Of a DNA stretch of 64,000 bases, positions 16,959 through 50,271 are shown piece after piece. The notes beneath the pieces were generated by a model. The model had not been told where the DNA came from. It worked only from the letters and a program-made list of their open reading frames with translations, and searched no databases. Source of the stretch: Thermosipho melanesiensis BI429. GTDB taxonomy: Bacteria > Thermotogota > Thermotogae > Thermotogales > Fervidobacteriaceae. Location: contig NC_009616.1 of the NCBI RefSeq assembly GCF_000016905.1, forward strand, positions 1,426,001-1,490,000, in the 5' to 3' direction. The position numbers and the translations under genes were made by a program. Every line of letters starts with the position of its first letter. Within the stretch, counting starts at the first letter, position 1.

Positions 16959-17039
16959 ATTACCACCTCGCTTTTCTTCACTTCCTTCACAATACTACAA
17001 CCATCCTTATCACAAAAAGCATCGCCGTCTTCTCCCCAT

Positions 17040-17169
17040 CCCTCTCACAATACTCTTAAATACATGAGAGGGTTTCTCAGCCTTACAGGCTGAGCAACAC
17101 GTGGGCTGGGACAAGCCCACGTGGAGGTGGGAAGTCCCCCACTACTCAGCCCGAAGCTGAGATACTTTA
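17040..17169 (-). ncRNA. Five-helix structured element, copy A
   Basis: Read on the minus strand from TAAAGTAT, five hairpins follow. P5 is CTCAGC/GCTGAG with loop TTCGG, P4 GTGGG/CCCAC, P3 CACGTGGGCT/AGCCCACGTG, P2 CTCAGCC/GGCTGAG with loop TGTAA, and P1 CCCTCTCA/TGAGAGGG. Linkers TA, TTG and AA(A) are shared with copy B. It begins 10 bases after the stop of the fibre gene. Conserved linkers with different but fully paired stems indicate selection on structure. What it does is unknown. Alternatives are a tnpB-less IS200/IS605 end or omegaRNA-like remnant, or an mRNA processing or stability element. Confidence 0.75.
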
Positions 17170-17178
17170 CCCGCCACC

Positions 17179-18405
17179 TCATACTATCGGTAACTTTGGC
17201 GGCACTGAGAATGGGCGGCGAGCTTCGTAGAGTTGTTGAATATAAGAGTCGGTCCAGATGTTGGGGTCGTACTTGGCGATGAGGAGGTTGGAAATTAAGC
17301 CGTTCATGCCATGTATTGCAGACAAATCTGAGGGCCTATAACCTATTTTTATATGAGTAAAATTACCAAGATTTAAACTTACTGTGATTGTTCGTCTTAA
17401 ACTTCCATTTAAATATATTTTTAATACAGAACCATCATATACAAATACAACAAAATGCCAATCATGAAAATCTACATCGAAAGCTTCTATTGTTACATTA
17501 GCTGCCGGAGCACCATCTTTTTGAATTACAATTCTTTGTGTTTGGTTATCAGGATATGTAAAAGAAGCGATACTATCCTGATAATAATCATCCGCTTGAA
17601 TTGTAATATCATGCTGAGCTGCTGTCGTTGGTTTATTATTTTTCCGCCAAAACGCAATAACAAAAGGTTCAGTAATTGGAATGTTAATTTTAAACCTTCC
17701 ATCAGGTCTCGTCCCATCTACAAAGCTTGTTGCGAAGGGTTTTATTTCTAACTGTAACTTATTCAAATAGCCCGAAATTCCACTTACATATGCTTTATAA
17801 AAATCCCAAATAAAATATAAATATCGTGTATCTTCTGGTAATGTATAAGTAATAATTACATCATACCATCTATCTAATAACAATTCTGGATTACCATAAT
17901 ACTCGGTTCTATGGCCGTTTATTTTTATATGCAATCCTTGCCTTTCCCAAAAATTCAGTGTTGCATCTCCTTTAACTTCTACTGTATCACCATCATTGAA
18001 ATCCATCCAATTGCTACCATCAATACTATATCTGGCGACAACAAACCATAGACATCCTTTGTGTTTCCAGCTTAAGGTTATCTTTGTTCCGGCTGGATAA
18101 ATTTGTCCTAAATCAATCGTGTGTGTCTCAATTTTATATACAGTAATACCTTGTCCACCAATATATGCTTTTTGTGTTTCGTCCCAACAATCTGCCCATG
18201 TTTTTCCTGAAGCCAAAGCATAAGGAAAAAATACCACTTGCCCAGCATCAAAATTCCACGAATATTGCCCGAAATAATTCATCGTCCCCTCTTCCACAGC
18301 AAAACTTTTCACGCCTGGAAACGGGACGTCGTCTTTTCGGAGCGTGACGCAGAGAGAGCCGTCGTCGTTGTAAATCAAGTTATAAGGGGTTTTAATCAAA
18401 GCCAT
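17179..18405 (-). CDS. Tail fibre with lectin/LamG-like domain
   Basis: About 408 residues from ATG 18405, which has GGAGG upstream; the frame opens earlier inside element B. It begins MALIKTPYNLIYNDDGSL, a common small N-terminal adaptor in phage fibres. The C-terminal half (about 240-400) looks like a concanavalin/LamG jelly roll (FKINIPITEPFVIAFWRKN, WHFVVFVYDGSVLKIYLNGS, then GLISNLLIAKYDPN). It probably binds a surface sugar. The gene is flanked on both sides by the five-helix elements. Its two ends are GC-richer than the middle. Confidence 0.7.
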   Translation of the reverse strand: MALIKTPYNLIYNDDGSLCVTLRKDDVPFPGVKSFAVEEGTMNYFGQYSWNFDAGQVVFFPYALASGKTWADCWDETQKAYIGGQGITVYKIETHTIDLGQIYPAGTKITLSWKHKGCLWFVVARYSIDGSNWMDFNDGDTVEVKGDATLNFWERQGLHIKINGHRTEYYGNPELLLDRWYDVIITYTLPEDTRYLYFIWDFYKAYVSGISGYLNKLQLEIKPFATSFVDGTRPDGRFKINIPITEPFVIAFWRKNNKPTTAAQHDITIQADDYYQDSIASFTYPDNQTQRIVIQKDGAPAANVTIEAFDVDFHDWHFVVFVYDGSVLKIYLNGSLRRTITVSLNLGNFTHIKIGYRPSDLSAIHGMNGLISNLLIAKYDPNIWTDSYIQQLYEARRPFSVPPKLPIV

Positions 18406-18466
18406 TCTATTTCCTCCTTCTTGCTTTACACTGCCAATTCCTAAACAATAAACAGAAACCCCTAAT

Positions 18467-18597
18467 CCCCCTGTGTTCTCGCAGAACTTCACAGAGGGTT
18501 CACAACCCCTTATAGGGGCTGTGCAACACGCTGGCCAGCCTTACCAGCGTGGGTGTTAGGGGACACCCACTACTCACCCCGCGGGCGAGATACTTTA
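18467..18597 (-). ncRNA. Five-helix structured element, copy B
   Basis: Same layout as copy A. P5 is CTCGCCC/GGGTGAG, P4 GGTGT/ACACC (extendable), P3 CACGCTGG/CCAGCGTG, P2 CACAGCCCC/GGGGTTGTG with loop TATAA, and P1 CCCTCTGTG/CACAGGGGG. P1, P2 and P5 each contain a G-U pair on the minus strand that would be an A-C mismatch on the plus strand, so the functional strand is minus. Its first three bases TAA are the stop codon of the gene at 18595-18939, as if insertion of the element had ended that gene. Confidence 0.75.
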
Positions 18598-41854: not shown

Positions 41855-42475
41855 GTGAATATTGGTGAAAAAATTAAGTTTTTAAGATTACAAAAAGGAT
41901 TAACGCAGGAACAATTAGGAAATATAATAAATGTTGGGCAACGAACTATATCCGCTTATGAAAGTGGAAAAGCTACTCCTTCGGTAGAGGTATTAAAATC
42001 TCTTGCTGACTACTTTGATGTAGCGGTTGACTACTTCCTTTCCGATAAACCTGGACAAACCGAGGTTGAGTTTGTGGATATTAAGTTCAAGAAAGTACCA
42101 CTTTATTCTGCTCCTGTTTCAGCTGGTAATGGCGCTTTTCCTAACGATATATACGTGTTGGGTGAAATCAATGCTATAAATCATGATGTTGACTTCGCTG
42201 TTAAAGTTGTAGGGAATAGCATGGAGCCAATTGCTCCAGATGGCTCTGTTTTGTTTGTCAAGAAACAAAATTATGCTTTTAACGGAGATATGATTGTGTG
42301 TACTTATGATGGCTGGATCTATGTTAAATGGTATGTAAAACAGAATGATAAAATTTTGCTTCTTTCAGAAAATCCTACTTATACTCCTATTGTTGTTGAG
42401 CCAAAAGATAGGTTTATAATACACGGTGTAGTGCAGGAGGTTATGCTGCAAAAGCCTAAAAAAGTTGTTAAATAA
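41855..42475 (+). CDS. CI/LexA-type prophage repressor
   Basis: 206 residues from GTG 41855 (AAGGATG upstream). The N-terminal HTH_3 (LRLQKGLTQEQLGNIINVGQ, RTISAYESGKATPSVEVLKS) and the C-terminal S24 peptidase domain (VVGNSMEPIAPDGSVLFVKK with catalytic Ser, VKWYVKQ with Lys) show a self-cleaving repressor like LexA/CI, so induction via RecA is likely. It is the first gene of the rightward lysogeny arm and overlaps the frame of the methyltransferase gene. Confidence 0.93.
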   Translation: MNIGEKIKFLRLQKGLTQEQLGNIINVGQRTISAYESGKATPSVEVLKSLADYFDVAVDYFLSDKPGQTEVEFVDIKFKKVPLYSAPVSAGNGAFPNDIYVLGEINAINHDVDFAVKVVGNSMEPIAPDGSVLFVKKQNYAFNGDMIVCTYDGWIYVKWYVKQNDKILLLSENPTYTPIVVEPKDRFIIHGVVQEVMLQKPKKVVK

Positions 42476-42485
42476 GGAGGTTATT

Positions 42486-43253
42486 ATGAGAAATTGGGAA
42501 GCAATACAAGGAATTAAGTTGATAAATGAGGATTTTCTCAAAACACGTATTCCTGAAAATAGTATTGATTTAATAGTAACTTCACCACCATATAACGTTG
42601 GAATACCGTACAACTCCCACAATGACAAAATTACTTATAAAGATTATCTTATTTGGACTGAGAAGTGGTTAACAAAAGCTTTCCAATTATCAAAACCAGA
42701 TGGTAGAATGTGTCTTAATATTCCTTTAGATAAAAATAAAGGTGGCCAGCAAAGTGTTTATGCTGATATTGTATATTTAGCTAAAAAAATTGGCTGGAAG
42801 TATCATTCTACGATAATTTGGAATGAAGGTAATATTTCTAGAAGAACAGCTTGGGGTAGTTGGCTTTCTGCTTCCGCCCCATATGTGATTGCTCCTGTTG
42901 AAACAATAGTAATTTTATATAAGGAAACTTGGAAAAAACAAAAAAGAGGAAAATCTGATATTTTAAGAGAGGAATTTATTGAATGGACTAATGGGCTCTG
43001 GACTTTTTCTGGCGAGAGCAAAAAGAAAATTGGACATCCTGCTCCCTTTCCTTTTGAATTGCCGAAACGGTGTATTAAACTTTTTAGTTACGTTGGAGAT
43101 GTTATATTGGATCCTTTTTTAGGGAGTGGTACTACTGCGATTGCTGCCTTTAGGCTAAAAAGAAAGGTTATTGGTGTTGAAATAGACAAAAAATATTTTG
43201 AATTAGCTATTAAAAGAATTTCAAAACAATGTTTTAGATTAGAAGGTTTTTGA
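42486..43253 (+). CDS. DNA methyltransferase of a restriction-modification pair (beta class)
   Basis: About 255 residues from ATG 42486 (AAGGAGG upstream). Catalytic motif IV TSPPYNVG near the start, then SAM-binding motif I at the end (DPFLGSGTTAIAAFRLKRKV), the order typical of beta-class N4-cytosine or N6-adenine enzymes. The region between (about residues 90-190) would be the target-recognition domain. Followed by the endonuclease gene after 52 bases. The target sequence cannot be read off. Confidence 0.9.
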   Translation: MRNWEAIQGIKLINEDFLKTRIPENSIDLIVTSPPYNVGIPYNSHNDKITYKDYLIWTEKWLTKAFQLSKPDGRMCLNIPLDKNKGGQQSVYADIVYLAKKIGWKYHSTIIWNEGNISRRTAWGSWLSASAPYVIAPVETIVILYKETWKKQKRGKSDILREEFIEWTNGLWTFSGESKKKIGHPAPFPFELPKRCIKLFSYVGDVILDPFLGSGTTAIAAFRLKRKVIGVEIDKKYFELAIKRISKQCFRLEGF

Positions 43254-43305
43254 TTTTTTAACAAACTAATTTTATTTACATTGATTCTGATAAAGGAGGA
43301 GCATT

Positions 43306-43983
43306 ATGGAATCAAATGATGTTTCTAAGTTTCTAGAAATTCAAAAAAAAGCATATGTTAAAAAGAAAATTAGTGAATATATTTCAAAAGGATTCGATGA
43401 AAAAACTGCTAGTAATAAAGCAAGTCAATCCTGGAGATCTTATGTTGGTAAGATGCTTGAAAAAATCATTTTTGAAAGTCTGAAAGAACCTTTGGAAAAA
43501 CAAGGATTAAAGTTAGTGACTGACAACGACTTAATTAGAAACAGGAACTTAACTAAAGAACTTGAATTAGTAAAAAGATTAATATCTATAGATTATGGTG
43601 AATACTTATTCTTGCCTGATGCTGATATTATCGTTTATAAGGTCACAAAAAAGAAAGCGATAGATGAGTTAGACGAAAACGATATAAAAATTTTAGCAAT
43701 AATTTCTGTAAAAAATTCATTTAGAGAAAGAGGGTTTGAAACAGCATATTGGAAAAAGAAGCTGAGTGAATCTATAATTACCTCACATATTAAAGTGTTT
43801 ATGGCTACTCCAGACCCAGATAATGAAATTTCTTATATAGCTCCAAATCACAAGCCAAAAAAGATGAGAGTAATATTAGAGTATGAATTAGATGGAATTT
43901 ATCTATTAAAAAATGAATTTGATGAAACGAAAAAAACAAAACATTTCGATGAAATAGCAAATGATATTTTATCGATAAAATAA
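43306..43983 (+). CDS. Type II restriction endonuclease (PD-(D/E)xK type)
   Basis: 225 residues. The catalytic core is LPDADIIVY, then IISVKNSFRERGFETAYWKK; Ser-x-Lys-Asn-Ser-x-Arg-Glu-Arg resembles the active-site region of the CCGG-cutting family (BsaWI, Cfr10I, Bse634I). That comparison is from memory. Helical N-terminus (MESNDVSKFLEIQKKAYVKK). Located right after its methyltransferase. Together they would protect the lysogen from incoming phage or stabilise the prophage. Confidence 0.8.
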   Translation: MESNDVSKFLEIQKKAYVKKKISEYISKGFDEKTASNKASQSWRSYVGKMLEKIIFESLKEPLEKQGLKLVTDNDLIRNRNLTKELELVKRLISIDYGEYLFLPDADIIVYKVTKKKAIDELDENDIKILAIISVKNSFRERGFETAYWKKKLSESIITSHIKVFMATPDPDNEISYIAPNHKPKKMRVILEYELDGIYLLKNEFDETKKTKHFDEIANDILSIK

Positions 43984-46709: not shown

Positions 46710-48167
46710 GTGAAACGCGCTGCGGCATATGCAAGATATTCGTCTGATAGACAAAGCGATACTTCTATTGAAGCCCAGCTTGAGAAAATTAGAAAATACT
46801 GTGAAGAAAAAGGGTATGTAGTTGTAAAAGAATATATAGACAGAGCACAATCTGCTGCGACTGATAAACGTATTGCATTTCAGCAGATGTTTAAAGATGC
46901 TGAAAATCATGAATTTGATGTTGTGGTTGTGTATAAGCTTGACAGGTTTGCAAGAAACTTGTATGACTCCGTTGTATATACTAAAAAACTGGAAGAGCTT
47001 AATATTGCTCTTGAAAGCACAACAGAGCCCATCACCCAGGACATCGCAGGAAAATTCTTTCGTAATATCATGGGGGCTATAAATGAACTTTATATAGAGA
47101 ATTTAAAGCAAGAAATTCGAGACAAAGCAATTGTAGTTGCTAAAAAAGGCTATTTTATGGGTGGAGTCCCTCCTTTCGGCTTTAAGCTTGTAGAAGAAAC
47201 TGATGAGTATGGTAAGAAACGCAAAAGATACGAAATAGATGAGAATGAAGCACCGTATGTTCGTGAGATATTTCAATTAGCAAGTCAGGGTGTAACTTTA
47301 AGACAAATAGCAGATAAACTTAATCAAAAAGGTTTAAAAACACGTCGTGGTAACAAATGGACTGTTAGAGCTTTATACGAGATGATTTTAAATGAGAAAT
47401 ATGCCGGGATATATACATACCAAAAAGGCACAAAGCATAATTATCATGCCAATCGCGAAGATGTTATTAGAATTCCTGGAGTAATTCCCGCAATAGTTGA
47501 TGAAGAAACATACTGGAACGCAAGGAATAAACTTGGAATTGGCAGTAAGAGAGTCAAAAGACATCATTATTTATTGAACGGTATTCTATATTGCGCTGTA
47601 TGTGGAAACCCAATGAATGGTGGTGCTCAAAGCGGAGATTATCCCAGATATATGTGCTCATATGCTAAACGTTTTAAAGAAAAAGGACATGTAAGTATTG
47701 GTAAAAAGAAAATAGAAGATTATGTTTTAACTCATATAAAACATACCTTTTTTACCAATGTTGATTTTGAAAAACTTGCCAAACAATTGAACAAAGAGCT
47801 AAACAAAACAAACAAAACTAAGGAAAAACAAATCCAGAAATTAAAAGCTGAACTTGCTGAAATAAATTTAAAATTACAGAGAGCAACACAAGCTATTTTA
47901 GCTGGAGTTGAACTTGACACTTTAAAAGATGAAATTGAGAAATTGAAACAACAAAAAATTGAAAAAGAATTTAAACTTGAAAAAGTAGTAAATGAAGAAA
48001 CGCCATCCCTTATAACTCCTGAAGGATTGCAACTTCTTTGGAATGAACTACAAAAACTGCTTGAAACAGAAAAAGAACTTGTTATCAAGAAGTTAATTGA
48101 GCGAATAACCGTTTATCCAGACGGTTTCATAGACATAAAATACCGAAACGTAATATCATATATTTAG
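46710..48167 (+). CDS. Large serine recombinase (prophage integrase)
   Basis: 485 residues from GTG 46710 (AAAGGAGAG upstream). The resolvase domain has the catalytic serine in AYARYSSDRQSDTSIEAQ and the arginines in VVYKLDRFARNLYDSV. A recombinase domain follows (GVTLRQIADKLNQKGLKTRR), then a zinc ribbon (YCAVCGNPMNGGAQ, YMCSY) and a C-terminal coiled coil (KEKQIQKLKAELAEINLKLQ). The stop lies seven bases from attR. Serine recombinases cut and religate att sites without ligase. An excision partner would be needed. Confidence 0.95.
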   Translation: MKRAAAYARYSSDRQSDTSIEAQLEKIRKYCEEKGYVVVKEYIDRAQSAATDKRIAFQQMFKDAENHEFDVVVVYKLDRFARNLYDSVVYTKKLEELNIALESTTEPITQDIAGKFFRNIMGAINELYIENLKQEIRDKAIVVAKKGYFMGGVPPFGFKLVEETDEYGKKRKRYEIDENEAPYVREIFQLASQGVTLRQIADKLNQKGLKTRRGNKWTVRALYEMILNEKYAGIYTYQKGTKHNYHANREDVIRIPGVIPAIVDEETYWNARNKLGIGSKRVKRHHYLLNGILYCAVCGNPMNGGAQSGDYPRYMCSYAKRFKEKGHVSIGKKKIEDYVLTHIKHTFFTNVDFEKLAKQLNKELNKTNKTKEKQIQKLKAELAEINLKLQRATQAILAGVELDTLKDEIEKLKQQKIEKEFKLEKVVNEETPSLITPEGLQLLWNELQKLLETEKELVIKKLIERITVYPDGFIDIKYRNVISYI

Positions 48168-48174
48168 CTATTTA

Positions 48175-48199
48175 GTTCGATTCCGTCCCTCGCCACCAG
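48175..48199 (+). other. attR core
   Basis: Direct copy of 11016-11040, the T-arm to CCA portion of tRNA-Phe without the rest of the gene. It marks the right end of the prophage. Confidence 0.93.
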
Positions 48200-48580
48200 T
48201 TTTCTTTAAATTGTTCTTTGCGAATTAATAATCCTCTTGATAAGAAGATTCTTTTGTTGGAATTTATTTCTTTCTCCACTTTCTACTGGCTTTTATATCT
48301 CTTTTAGATGTATGTTTCTTTAATAAGTAACTTTTTATTTAATACAATAATTAGATATTCATGTTTTACCAAAGTTACTTAGAGGTTAAAAGGAAAGGGA
48401 TAACTTGCATTTTGTTTTAATTATAAATTTCGGACAAAATAACTGTCTCTCAACCATTTATACTTGTATCACATAATGATACGTTTTTATGAGTAATTCT
48501 AGGTAAATGGGTTGCGTTTTATATATAAAACATGAAAGATAGTGATATAATTTTGTTAGGAAAAGATTTTTTGGTTTTGG
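48200..48580. other. Intergenic region right of the prophage
   Basis: About 380 bases of AT-rich DNA that would normally follow tRNA-Phe. A weak stem GTATCA/TGATAC followed by GTTTTTA (around 48465-48495) may terminate the tRNA operon. No gene or other tRNA is seen. Confidence 0.6.
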
Positions 48581-49312
48581 TTAATAAATTAGATATTTTG
48601 TAGCAGAGATAATTATCATTATGAATACAACTATTCTGACAAATTTTGCTCCACTTTTTAAGGTTGCTTTGGTTCCAATTTTAGCGCCTACCATTGTTCC
48701 TGTTGCAAGTATAATCCCTTTTAAAATATCTACTTTTCCATTTGTTAAAAATATTATAAAAGAAAAGGAAGTATAACAAAGCACTATGAATACTTTTAGT
48801 GCATTTGTCTTTATTATATCATTTCCTTCAACAAACACTAAACTTGCTATTAGAAAAAATCCAACGCCTGCTTGTATGAATCCTCCGTAGAATCCTACAA
48901 TAAAGAACACAAAAAAGCTTATTAAATAATTTTTCTTTACTTTTTTACCTTCTTCCCAAACCTTTGGTTTATATAGTATAAAAAAACTCATAAATAAAAA
49001 GATTATACCAACAATTTTTTCAAGTATATCTTTGTTTATGTTTAAAACTGTAAAAGTTCCAAAAATTGCTCCGATAGTTGCAGGTATTGCCAAAAAAATT
49101 GCTTCTTTTGCTTTAAATACCTTGTTTTTGTGAAAATTTATTGAGCTAACAACATTTTGTAATAATATTCCCACCCTATTTGTTCCATTGGCAACTGATA
49201 AATCAAGTCCCATTAAAGAAAGTATTGGTAGTGTTAGCATTGAGCCTCCACCGGCAAGTACATTAACAAATCCAGCACCAATACCTGATACAAAAAGTAA
49301 AAGATAAAACAT
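48581..49312 (-). CDS. TauE/SafE-family membrane transporter
   Basis: 243 residues with about eight hydrophobic segments and the family signature GIGAGFVNVLAGGGSMLTLP near the N-terminus and GFYGGFIQAGVGFFLIASLV as the internal repeat. Family members export or import sulfite, sulfonates or related anions. ATG has GGAGG upstream. The start overlaps the extended end of the M42 frame by 79 bases. Confidence 0.88.
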   Translation of the reverse strand: MFYLLLFVSGIGAGFVNVLAGGGSMLTLPILSLMGLDLSVANGTNRVGILLQNVVSSINFHKNKVFKAKEAIFLAIPATIGAIFGTFTVLNINKDILEKIVGIIFLFMSFFILYKPKVWEEGKKVKKNYLISFFVFFIVGFYGGFIQAGVGFFLIASLVFVEGNDIIKTNALKVFIVLCYTSFSFIIFLTNGKVDILKGIILATGTMVGAKIGTKATLKSGAKFVRIVVFIMIIISATKYLIY

Positions 49313-50271
49313 TCTTTTACCTCCTCAATGATAGCAATAACAAGATTTATTAAATGTTCAAGATCTTTTTTATGTAACATTTCAACAGTTGAATGTAGAT
49401 ATTTTACAGCAATGCTTAAAGCAACGAATGGAATACCATGTTCAACAAAAATACTTCCATCAGTGCCACCGCCCGTTGAGGCAACTTGAATTGGGATATT
49501 GTGTTTTTCTACCACTTTTATTATTTTCCTTGCATGATAAAAAGAGTTTATCCCAGAATTATCAACAAATCTTATGATTGGGCCTTTTCCAGGTTTAATG
49601 TGTTTGTTTTGATTAGAGCAGCAAGCAAATGAATCAATAGCTATAGCTAATTCGAAATTTTTAAAGTTGTTTGCAATTGCCTTTGCACCTTTCAATCCTA
49701 TTTCTTCCTGGACTGTCCATGCAAAAGTAGCAAATTTTGTAGCTTTATAAGCTTCTTCTAGAACAAAACAACCAAATCTGTCGTCTAAAGAACGGCAAGA
49801 AATGTAGTTTTTTAGTACTAAAAAATTTTTTGAAAATACCGCATAGTCCATTATATTAATTCCATACCTTAAAACTTGTTCTTTTGTTTCTAATCCTATA
49901 TCAGCATACAATTCCAATTTCACATTATCGTTTTTTAAATGTGGCGGAATAGAACTGATAATGCCATTTACTACACCTTGTTTGGTAATAATATCTAAAT
50001 GGCGACTTTGTATTATTTCATCAGTTATTCCTTCAATTTTTTTTTAAAAAAGTTTTCCATCGTCAGTTATACTTGAAATTAAAAATCCAATTTCGTCTAT
50101 ATGTGCTAAAAAGATTATTTTAGAATCAGGATTAATAATTAGATTTCCTATCTTGTCTATATGATAGTTTTTTGGTTTTAAATGATTAAGTATGTTATCT
50201 CTTATCAATTCTTCTCTTGATGATATTCCTGGGAGTAGACAAAGTTCCTTTAATCTCTCTATTTTTGGCAT
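49234..50271 (-). pseudogene. M42-family aminopeptidase with an in-frame stop
   Basis: Two parts lie in the same frame, separated by TAA at 50044-50046. Part one (50044-50271) starts MPKIERLKELCLLPGISSRE and holds the metal His-Asp in FLAHIDEIGFL. Part two (49234-49923 and codons just before) holds the rest: SCRSLDDRFG, WTVQEEIGLKGA (catalytic Glu pair), AIDSFA and GGGTDGSIF, HSTVEM. The TAA sits in TTTTTTAAAAAAAAA. A single changed base gives a full-length aminopeptidase of the FrvX/YsdC type. The C-terminus also runs on into the permease gene, so the original stop may be lost. Real inactivation or sequence error. Confidence 0.75.

Follow-up and report, generated by a model that had tools for sequence, protein, structure and literature searches.

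Two probable TnpB omegaRNA scaffolds around a tail gene in the late operon of a Thermosipho prophage

What are the two structured elements that lie on either side of a single tail gene in a phage late operon, where did they come from and do they still act as RNA? The window analysed here is a stretch of 64,000 nucleotides from a Thermotogae genome of 1,915,238 bases. It contains a prophage whose late operon encodes a tape measure protein, a 117-aa protein, a LamG-domain tail protein and a large tail protein. The LamG tail gene sits between the two elements (A and B), each of which comes after a stop codon. An initial annotation, made from the sequence, had drawn A and B as five-helix elements and had offered three possible identities: a tnpB-less IS200/IS605 end, an omegaRNA-like remnant or a new mRNA element.

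Fold and pseudoknot of the two elements

Both intergenic elements were confirmed on the minus strand, at 17040–17169 and 18467–18597. Their 5′ ends stand as first drawn; their 3′ ends, which had been placed at P1, do not, as the 8 nt that follow contain a strand of a pseudoknot. The elements therefore end at 17032 and 18459, and the bases beyond occupy the guide position. Scaffold A thus spans 17032–17169 (138 nt), reaching 8 nt further 3′ than first drawn, and scaffold B spans 18459–18597 (139 nt), its first three bases being the stop codon of the upstream gene (Table 1). Compared with 200 dinucleotide shuffles, the minimum-energy folds of the minus strand have z values of −8.4 (A) and −4.8 (B), and those of the plus strand are weaker (−6.9 and −3.1, respectively).

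The linkers common to A and B are real, and the stems between them differ in sequence with all pairs kept, as had been described for P1, P2, P3 and P5. P4 belongs with these compensating helices too, once A is paired homologously (GUGGGGG/CCUCCAC). In the A–B alignment, all 26 pairs of P5 to P2 are standard in both copies, with both sides changed in five, and pairing falls to 36–44% when the partner is slid by 1–3 columns. All 34 counted stem positions are paired in A and in B, and every helix has a double compensation. P1 and the pseudoknot bring the count to 41 pairs, all of them kept in A and in B (10 doubly changed and 6 changed on one side), leaving zero unpaired positions in 82 cells (41 pairs in two copies). 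An invariant CAC after P4 could pair with the GUG of either P4 or P3. The three G–U pairs that had been noted on the minus strand of B (in P5, P2 and P1) are present, and A likewise has minus-strand G–U pairs, one in P5 and one in P4. With A and B alone, the observed covariation score is reached in 14 of 500 shuffles; as two sequences give no strong covariation statistic on their own, independent homologues are needed. The earlier statement that selection acted on the structure as an RNA of the late mRNA strand is supported for strand and structure, but the compensations may predate arrival at this locus.

Table 1 Features of scaffolds A and B and of the gene between them, in window coordinates
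Feature	Positions	Strand	Remark
A putative guide AAGACGGCGAUGCUUUUUGU	17012..17031	-	position inferred
A pseudoknot 3′ strand UGGGGAG	17032..17038	-	occupies the site of GUCAA/GUUC in TnpB omegaRNAs
A P1, terminal stem	17040..17072	-	last hairpin ahead of the pseudoknot strand
A P2	17076..17094	-	A–B alignment
A P3	17098..17123	-	A–B alignment
A P4	17121..17142	-	corresponds to stem 1 of the ISDra2 omegaRNA (PMC10097598); loop bears the pseudoknot 5′ strand
A pseudoknot 5′ strand CUUCCCA	17128..17134	-	7 pairs with 17032–17038
A P5, first hairpin	17145..17161	-	AAAGUAU-(CUCAGC..GCUGAG)-UAG is the 5′ hairpin of TnpB omegaRNAs
Tail gene, C-terminal LamG/ConA-like domain	17179..18405	-	PF13385, E 1.6e-11; phrog_38142; ATG at 18405 from sequence
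B putative guide UUUCUGUUUAUUGUUUAGGA	18439..18458	-	position inferred
B pseudoknot 3′ strand UUAGGGG	18459..18465	-	one nt past P1
B P1	18467..18498	-	last hairpin ahead of the pseudoknot strand
B P2	18501..18523	-	A–B alignment
B P3	18527..18551	-	A–B alignment
B P4	18549..18570	-	loop bears the pseudoknot 5′ strand
B pseudoknot 5′ strand CCCCUAA	18556..18562	-	7 Watson–Crick pairs with 18459–18465
B P5	18573..18589	-	A–B alignment

In each element, the P4 loop can pair with the 3′ end of the scaffold, one nucleotide past P1, in a pseudoknot of 7 bp; we consider its presence in both very likely. Its sequence differs between A and B and is compensated: when the strands are exchanged between the copies, at most 5 bp remain. 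Of the minus-strand sites, 0.1% (A) and 0.014% (B) have a 10-nt stretch that equals the observed one. The P value depends on the control, at about 0.008 (A) and 0.005 (B) with both strands shuffled, and 0.001 and 0.00014 against minus-strand background sites. In B, P4 could gain one more pair from the last loop base that the pseudoknot uses, at the expense of the latter. As a yardstick, 25 of 26 omegaRNAs examined have a pseudoknot of 6–8 bp that runs from the loop of the second stem (P4) to the last scaffold bases before the guide, the sole exception (L105) having one of 4 bp. Among clades, these pseudoknots change on both sides (UUGGCAC/GUGUCAA, UUGGCGUC/GACGUCAA, UUGACC/GGUCAA and GGACUA/UAGUUC). 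In the cryo-EM structure of ISDra2 TnpB, nucleotides −6 to −2 pair with nucleotides −106 to −102 in the stem-1 region (PMC10097598), and the pseudoknots of A and B are the same as this guide-proximal one. A kissing contact between the P4 and P3 loops of A (GGGAC/GUCCC) was dropped, as B, unlike for the pseudoknot, has no good counterpart.

Relation to TnpB omegaRNAs

The core pattern AAAGTATCTC..GAGTAGTGGG matched an element that Halanaerobiales carry in multiple copies; in L015, an intact tnpB gene precedes it, and the element starts at the stop codon of that gene. The remaining exact sites in public genomes are scattered and chance-like (Gammaproteobacteria, Planctomycetales, Cesiribacter and cyanobacteria). 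A search of Thermotogae with the L015 TnpB led to tnpB genes whose omegaRNAs have the same layout: A(A)GGUAU, a hairpin, UAG, a stem, one or more hairpins, a terminal hairpin and GUCAA. A covariance model (R2) was built from 11 tnpB-adjacent omegaRNAs of other Thermotogae, with the window sequences left out. On the minus strand, R2 matches A at 17038–17169, scoring 38 bits (E 9e-9 over 92 kb), and B at 18465–18597, scoring 27 bits (E 8.6e-7 over 8 kb, unfiltered); in the 92-kb search, the default filters had removed B. Both alignments span model positions 1 to 126, from the first base of each element. The opposite strand of A reaches 15 bits, the level expected of hairpins, and 119 kb of other loci gave zero matches up to an E value of 10. 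In the reciprocal search, a model made from the window (R1) was run on the omegaRNA loci and had a single match, in L053 at its omegaRNA (E 0.03). Matches of R1 in G067 and G083 fell in a tRNA gene and a coding region and were rejected. In whole-genome searches with R2, the first-look filter loses the window's own copies, so that negatives from such searches are uninformative for copies this divergent. R2 also misses more distant TnpB omegaRNAs (Halanaerobacter), and clade boundaries are therefore loose.

A and B share with the tnpB-adjacent, IS200/IS605-type omegaRNAs of Thermotogae (such as L045, L052 and L053) the AAAGUAU–hairpin–UAG start, P4 with its pseudoknot loop, P3, a GAA linker, the terminal hairpin and the pseudoknot strand before the guide; with L052 and L053 they share a GUUGC linker as well. 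They differ from the Thermotogae omegaRNAs in having no tnpB, in their length (138–139 nt versus about 160), in a pseudoknot strand that is not of the TCAA type and in the middle helices, which differ in sequence and of which they seem to have one hairpin fewer. The omegaRNAs of Halanaerobiales (L015, L008 and L016) have a nearly identical 5′ stretch, AAAGUAUCUC..GAGUAGUGGGUA, directly past the tnpB stop codon and follow the same pseudoknot logic; unlike A and B, they are attached to tnpB, occur in multiple copies, end in GUUCAC and are not detected by R2. R2 aligns its five helices to the five helices first drawn. The sequence alignment and the position of the pseudoknot suggest instead that P1 is the terminal hairpin and that A and B are one middle hairpin short of the Thermotoga type; under either helix mapping the scaffold is whole from the 5′ hairpin to the pseudoknot.

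Judged from sequence, A and B are very probably homologous to TnpB omegaRNAs. The suggestion that they are omegaRNA-like was right: a model of tnpB-adjacent omegaRNAs finds both, and the diagnostic guide-proximal pseudoknot is present. To call them remnants is doubtful, as no part of the fold has decayed, and a new mRNA element was the wrong family, since they belong to a known kind, although no model in Rfam 15 reports omegaRNAs of this class. HEARO (IscB omegaRNA), RAGATH-18 (IS607 reRNA) and other Rfam 15 families gave no relevant match at the gathering threshold or at E 5, what came up being weak and unrelated, the inclusion of each named family in Rfam 15 being taken as given; at the gathering threshold, Rfam 15 also leaves the tnpB-adjacent omegaRNAs of L015, L041, L045 and L052 unreported. 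An integron attC site, which is one imperfect hairpin, was considered because of the place of A and B after stop codons and was set aside on the positive omegaRNA match.

Missing partners and candidate roles

The window contains no tnpB gene. The TnpBs of the same genome are three fragments of another type and clade (HDRDINAA.N), truncated or broken (L021, L022 and L023), and the associated omegaRNA (GGGACUGUCCGAAAUUACGCC..) is of a different class from A and B. The L015 TnpB as query had no match in the genome, and neither a matching-clade TnpB nor a Cas12f-like protein or a TldR-like gene was found there. An adjacent nuclease-dead TnpB homologue was found neither among the prophage ORFs scanned nor by PF01385/PF07282 in the genome at this place. 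With no tnpB alongside, A and B were filed as derived, orphan members of the omegaRNAs and not as a standard TnpB system.

The marks of a transposon are missing as well. Past the terminal hairpin, the TCAA/TTCAC right-end motif is absent, and UGGGGAG (A) and UUAGGGG (B), unrelated to it and unlike each other, stand in its place; transposon-borne copies end in TCAA- or TTCAC-type sequence. Ends of this type are tied to transposase cleavage in IS200/IS605. A left end is absent upstream, where there is no room for one: the first bases of B are a stop codon, that of a conserved gene, and A starts 9 nt past a stop codon. We retain the IS200/IS605 ancestry proposed earlier and reject the description of A and B as transposon ends, for the right-end cleavage motif and the left end are not there; the ends have in all likelihood been lost from both. 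Solo omegaRNAs without tnpB that keep a TCAA/CCAA-type right end occur elsewhere (L083, L093, L102 and L105, in genomes G028, G038 and G021), and in G028 there are 16 R2 sites versus 9 matches to the TnpB query. The tnpB-less, MITE-like IS200/IS605 elements of Thermotogae among these (such as L083 and L102) resemble A and B in having an omegaRNA without tnpB but retain the TCAA-type right end.

The sequences that follow the scaffolds are wholly different between A and B, as expected of guides. Beyond chance, these putative guides have only self-matches in 21 genomes, and none of their exact 18-mers occurs in a viral contig collection. The elements themselves, used as queries against phage and plasmid DNA, gave no element match.

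Marinitoga viruses and prophages of related genera have the same gene order without A and B. In L034–L038 and Marinitoga camini virus 1, the stop codon that ends the 117-aa gene is a few bases ahead of the LamG start or overlaps it, and in L033 it is about 40 bases ahead; the second junction is short as well, with about 50 nt or less in L033, L035, L036, L038 and Marinitoga camini virus 1. No insert is present at these junctions in L033–L038 and Marinitoga virus 1. The corresponding gaps in the window are 189 and 220 nt. As the junctions of relatives are short and lack an insert, both scaffolds are additions to this phage. A search of IMG/VR with the neighbour gene returned no relative, and one with the LamG gene returned a single relative (L107), in which neither R1 nor R2 found an omegaRNA.

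We propose, with a probability of about 0.42, that A and B are liberated (exapted) omegaRNA scaffolds that arise from the late mRNA and either load a TnpB-type protein provided in trans or titrate it. Each has the complete set of parts of a TnpB-type scaffold: the 5′ hairpin, P4 with its pseudoknot loop, the middle hairpins, the terminal hairpin, the pseudoknot strand and the guide position. Having descended from an IS200/IS605-type element, the scaffolds would have separated from it and persisted as RNA, to be transcribed within the phage late mRNA and then processed out; TnpB has been described as trimming its own mRNA into omegaRNA (PMC10278001). They may then load a TnpB- or TldR-like protein of the host or infected cell, or of another mobile element, and this protein would be either redirected by the guides of the scaffolds or titrated. 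As no partner was found in the genome, it would have to come in trans. The protein-loading features are kept, the two pseudoknots both pair and the ends have been dropped, and A and B are thus best read as freed guide RNA. For a retained function as a trans-acting RNA of any kind, the odds are a little short of even. It is doubtful that A and B are working trans guides or decoys against the TnpB-type nucleases of infected cells, that is, protein-free and transposon-free OMEGA RNAs in a late operon around a host-range gene.

The main rival is that A and B are fossils, two tnpB-less IS200/IS605 copies or separate remnants with their ends lost and a fold that is inherited and has no present function, which we regard as possible though rather unlikely. 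Solo omegaRNAs without tnpB are known in other Thermotogae, as listed above, the TnpBs of this genome are all broken, no target was found for the putative guides and the compensations may have arisen while the ancestors were still in transposons, before insertion here. However, the solo copies elsewhere retain a TCAA/CCAA-type right end that A and B lack, the pseudoknot strands of A and B have diverged into two sequences with pairing kept, and the absence of unpaired positions from all 82 cells speaks against long neutral decay. It would also have to be a coincidence that two remnants share an orientation and both lie directly past stop codons, one on each side of a single gene. A special case of the freed-scaffold reading, improbable in itself, is an RNA decoy, in which phage mimics sequester TnpB- or Cas12-like proteins of the host during lytic growth. 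It is well established that phages use RNA decoys, type V-A being among the systems targeted (PMC10651486). In some Thermotogales genomes, TnpBs of the matching clade are frequent, and a kept scaffold with no nuclease and no guide target found is what a decoy needs. Against this, a matching TnpB was not found in this host genus, and TnpB is not established as an anti-phage defence in this group.

The position of A and B, intercistronic in one operon, on the sense strand, directly past stop codons and with strong folds, would also suit a cis-acting RNA, the omegaRNA fold having been exapted for processing or stability of the late mRNA or to insulate translation between tail genes. This is less probable still, because it leaves unexplained why the guide-proximal pseudoknot and the AAAGUAU and UAG flanks of protein-loading omegaRNAs were retained, and related phages do without A and B. 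That the elements are recombination borders for swapping the host-range tail gene between phages is very improbable: the two direct copies do enclose a single gene, and that gene is AT-rich relative to its neighbours, but the identity between the copies of 74% over 50 nt is low for homologous recombination, and relatives carry the same gene at the same place without borders.

Freed omegaRNA scaffolds would have two near parallels, of which TldR with its guide RNA is the closest domesticated one in phages. TldRs are prophage-borne, nuclease-dead TnpB repressors with guide RNAs, and it has been suggested that a tldR locus, once broken, can still provide guides in trans (PMC13418256). A and B resemble the TldR guide RNAs in being TnpB-derived, domesticated by a temperate phage and near a surface-structure gene (PMC13418256), and differ from TldR cassettes in that no TldR gene and no target were found here. 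Racr is an RNA-based anti-CRISPR made of solitary repeat units from phages, which titrate Cas proteins (PMC10651486). It too is a phage-encoded piece of guide RNA without a protein partner (PMC10651486), but it is a CRISPR repeat, whereas A and B are TnpB scaffolds and inhibition by them is putative.

Previously, TnpB guide RNAs were known in transposons and, lately, in domesticated TldR cassettes; TnpB is itself the transposon ancestor of CRISPR–Cas12. New here is an intact, doubly compensated scaffold with its own pseudoknot code, without protein or transposon ends, which points to domestication of the RNA only. If functional, A and B would mean that phages use OMEGA RNAs in trans, linking TnpB biology with phage–host conflict, and would provide a compact natural scaffold variant from a thermophile in which the pseudoknot has been rewritten twice.

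The surrounding prophage

A Pfam scan of the prophage proteins identified capsid, portal, terminase, RecT, YqaJ, a repressor, a BsaWI-type restriction enzyme with a methylase, and a serine recombinase; no TnpB-like domain was found among the proteins scanned. The DNA methylase and the BsaWI-type restriction endonuclease lie side by side at 42465–43983, adjoining the repressor. On the right side of the prophage (46710–49923), the large serine recombinase adjoins TauE and an M42 peptidase ORF. Of the family profile, this ORF spans the second part only, and the place is possibly the integration site.

The LamG tail gene (17250–18400) is AT-rich, at about 33% G+C versus 45–48% in its neighbours, which suggests a separate origin. 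In the Marinitoga phage MPV1 (L027, 3490–4000) and in the matching prophage of G091 (L037, 2965–3333), a stop-riddled gene relic lies between the LamG gene and the tail fibre, and in MPV1 a terminator-like GAGTAGCGGGC..GCCCGC hairpin comes after it. This place seems to be prone to insertion.
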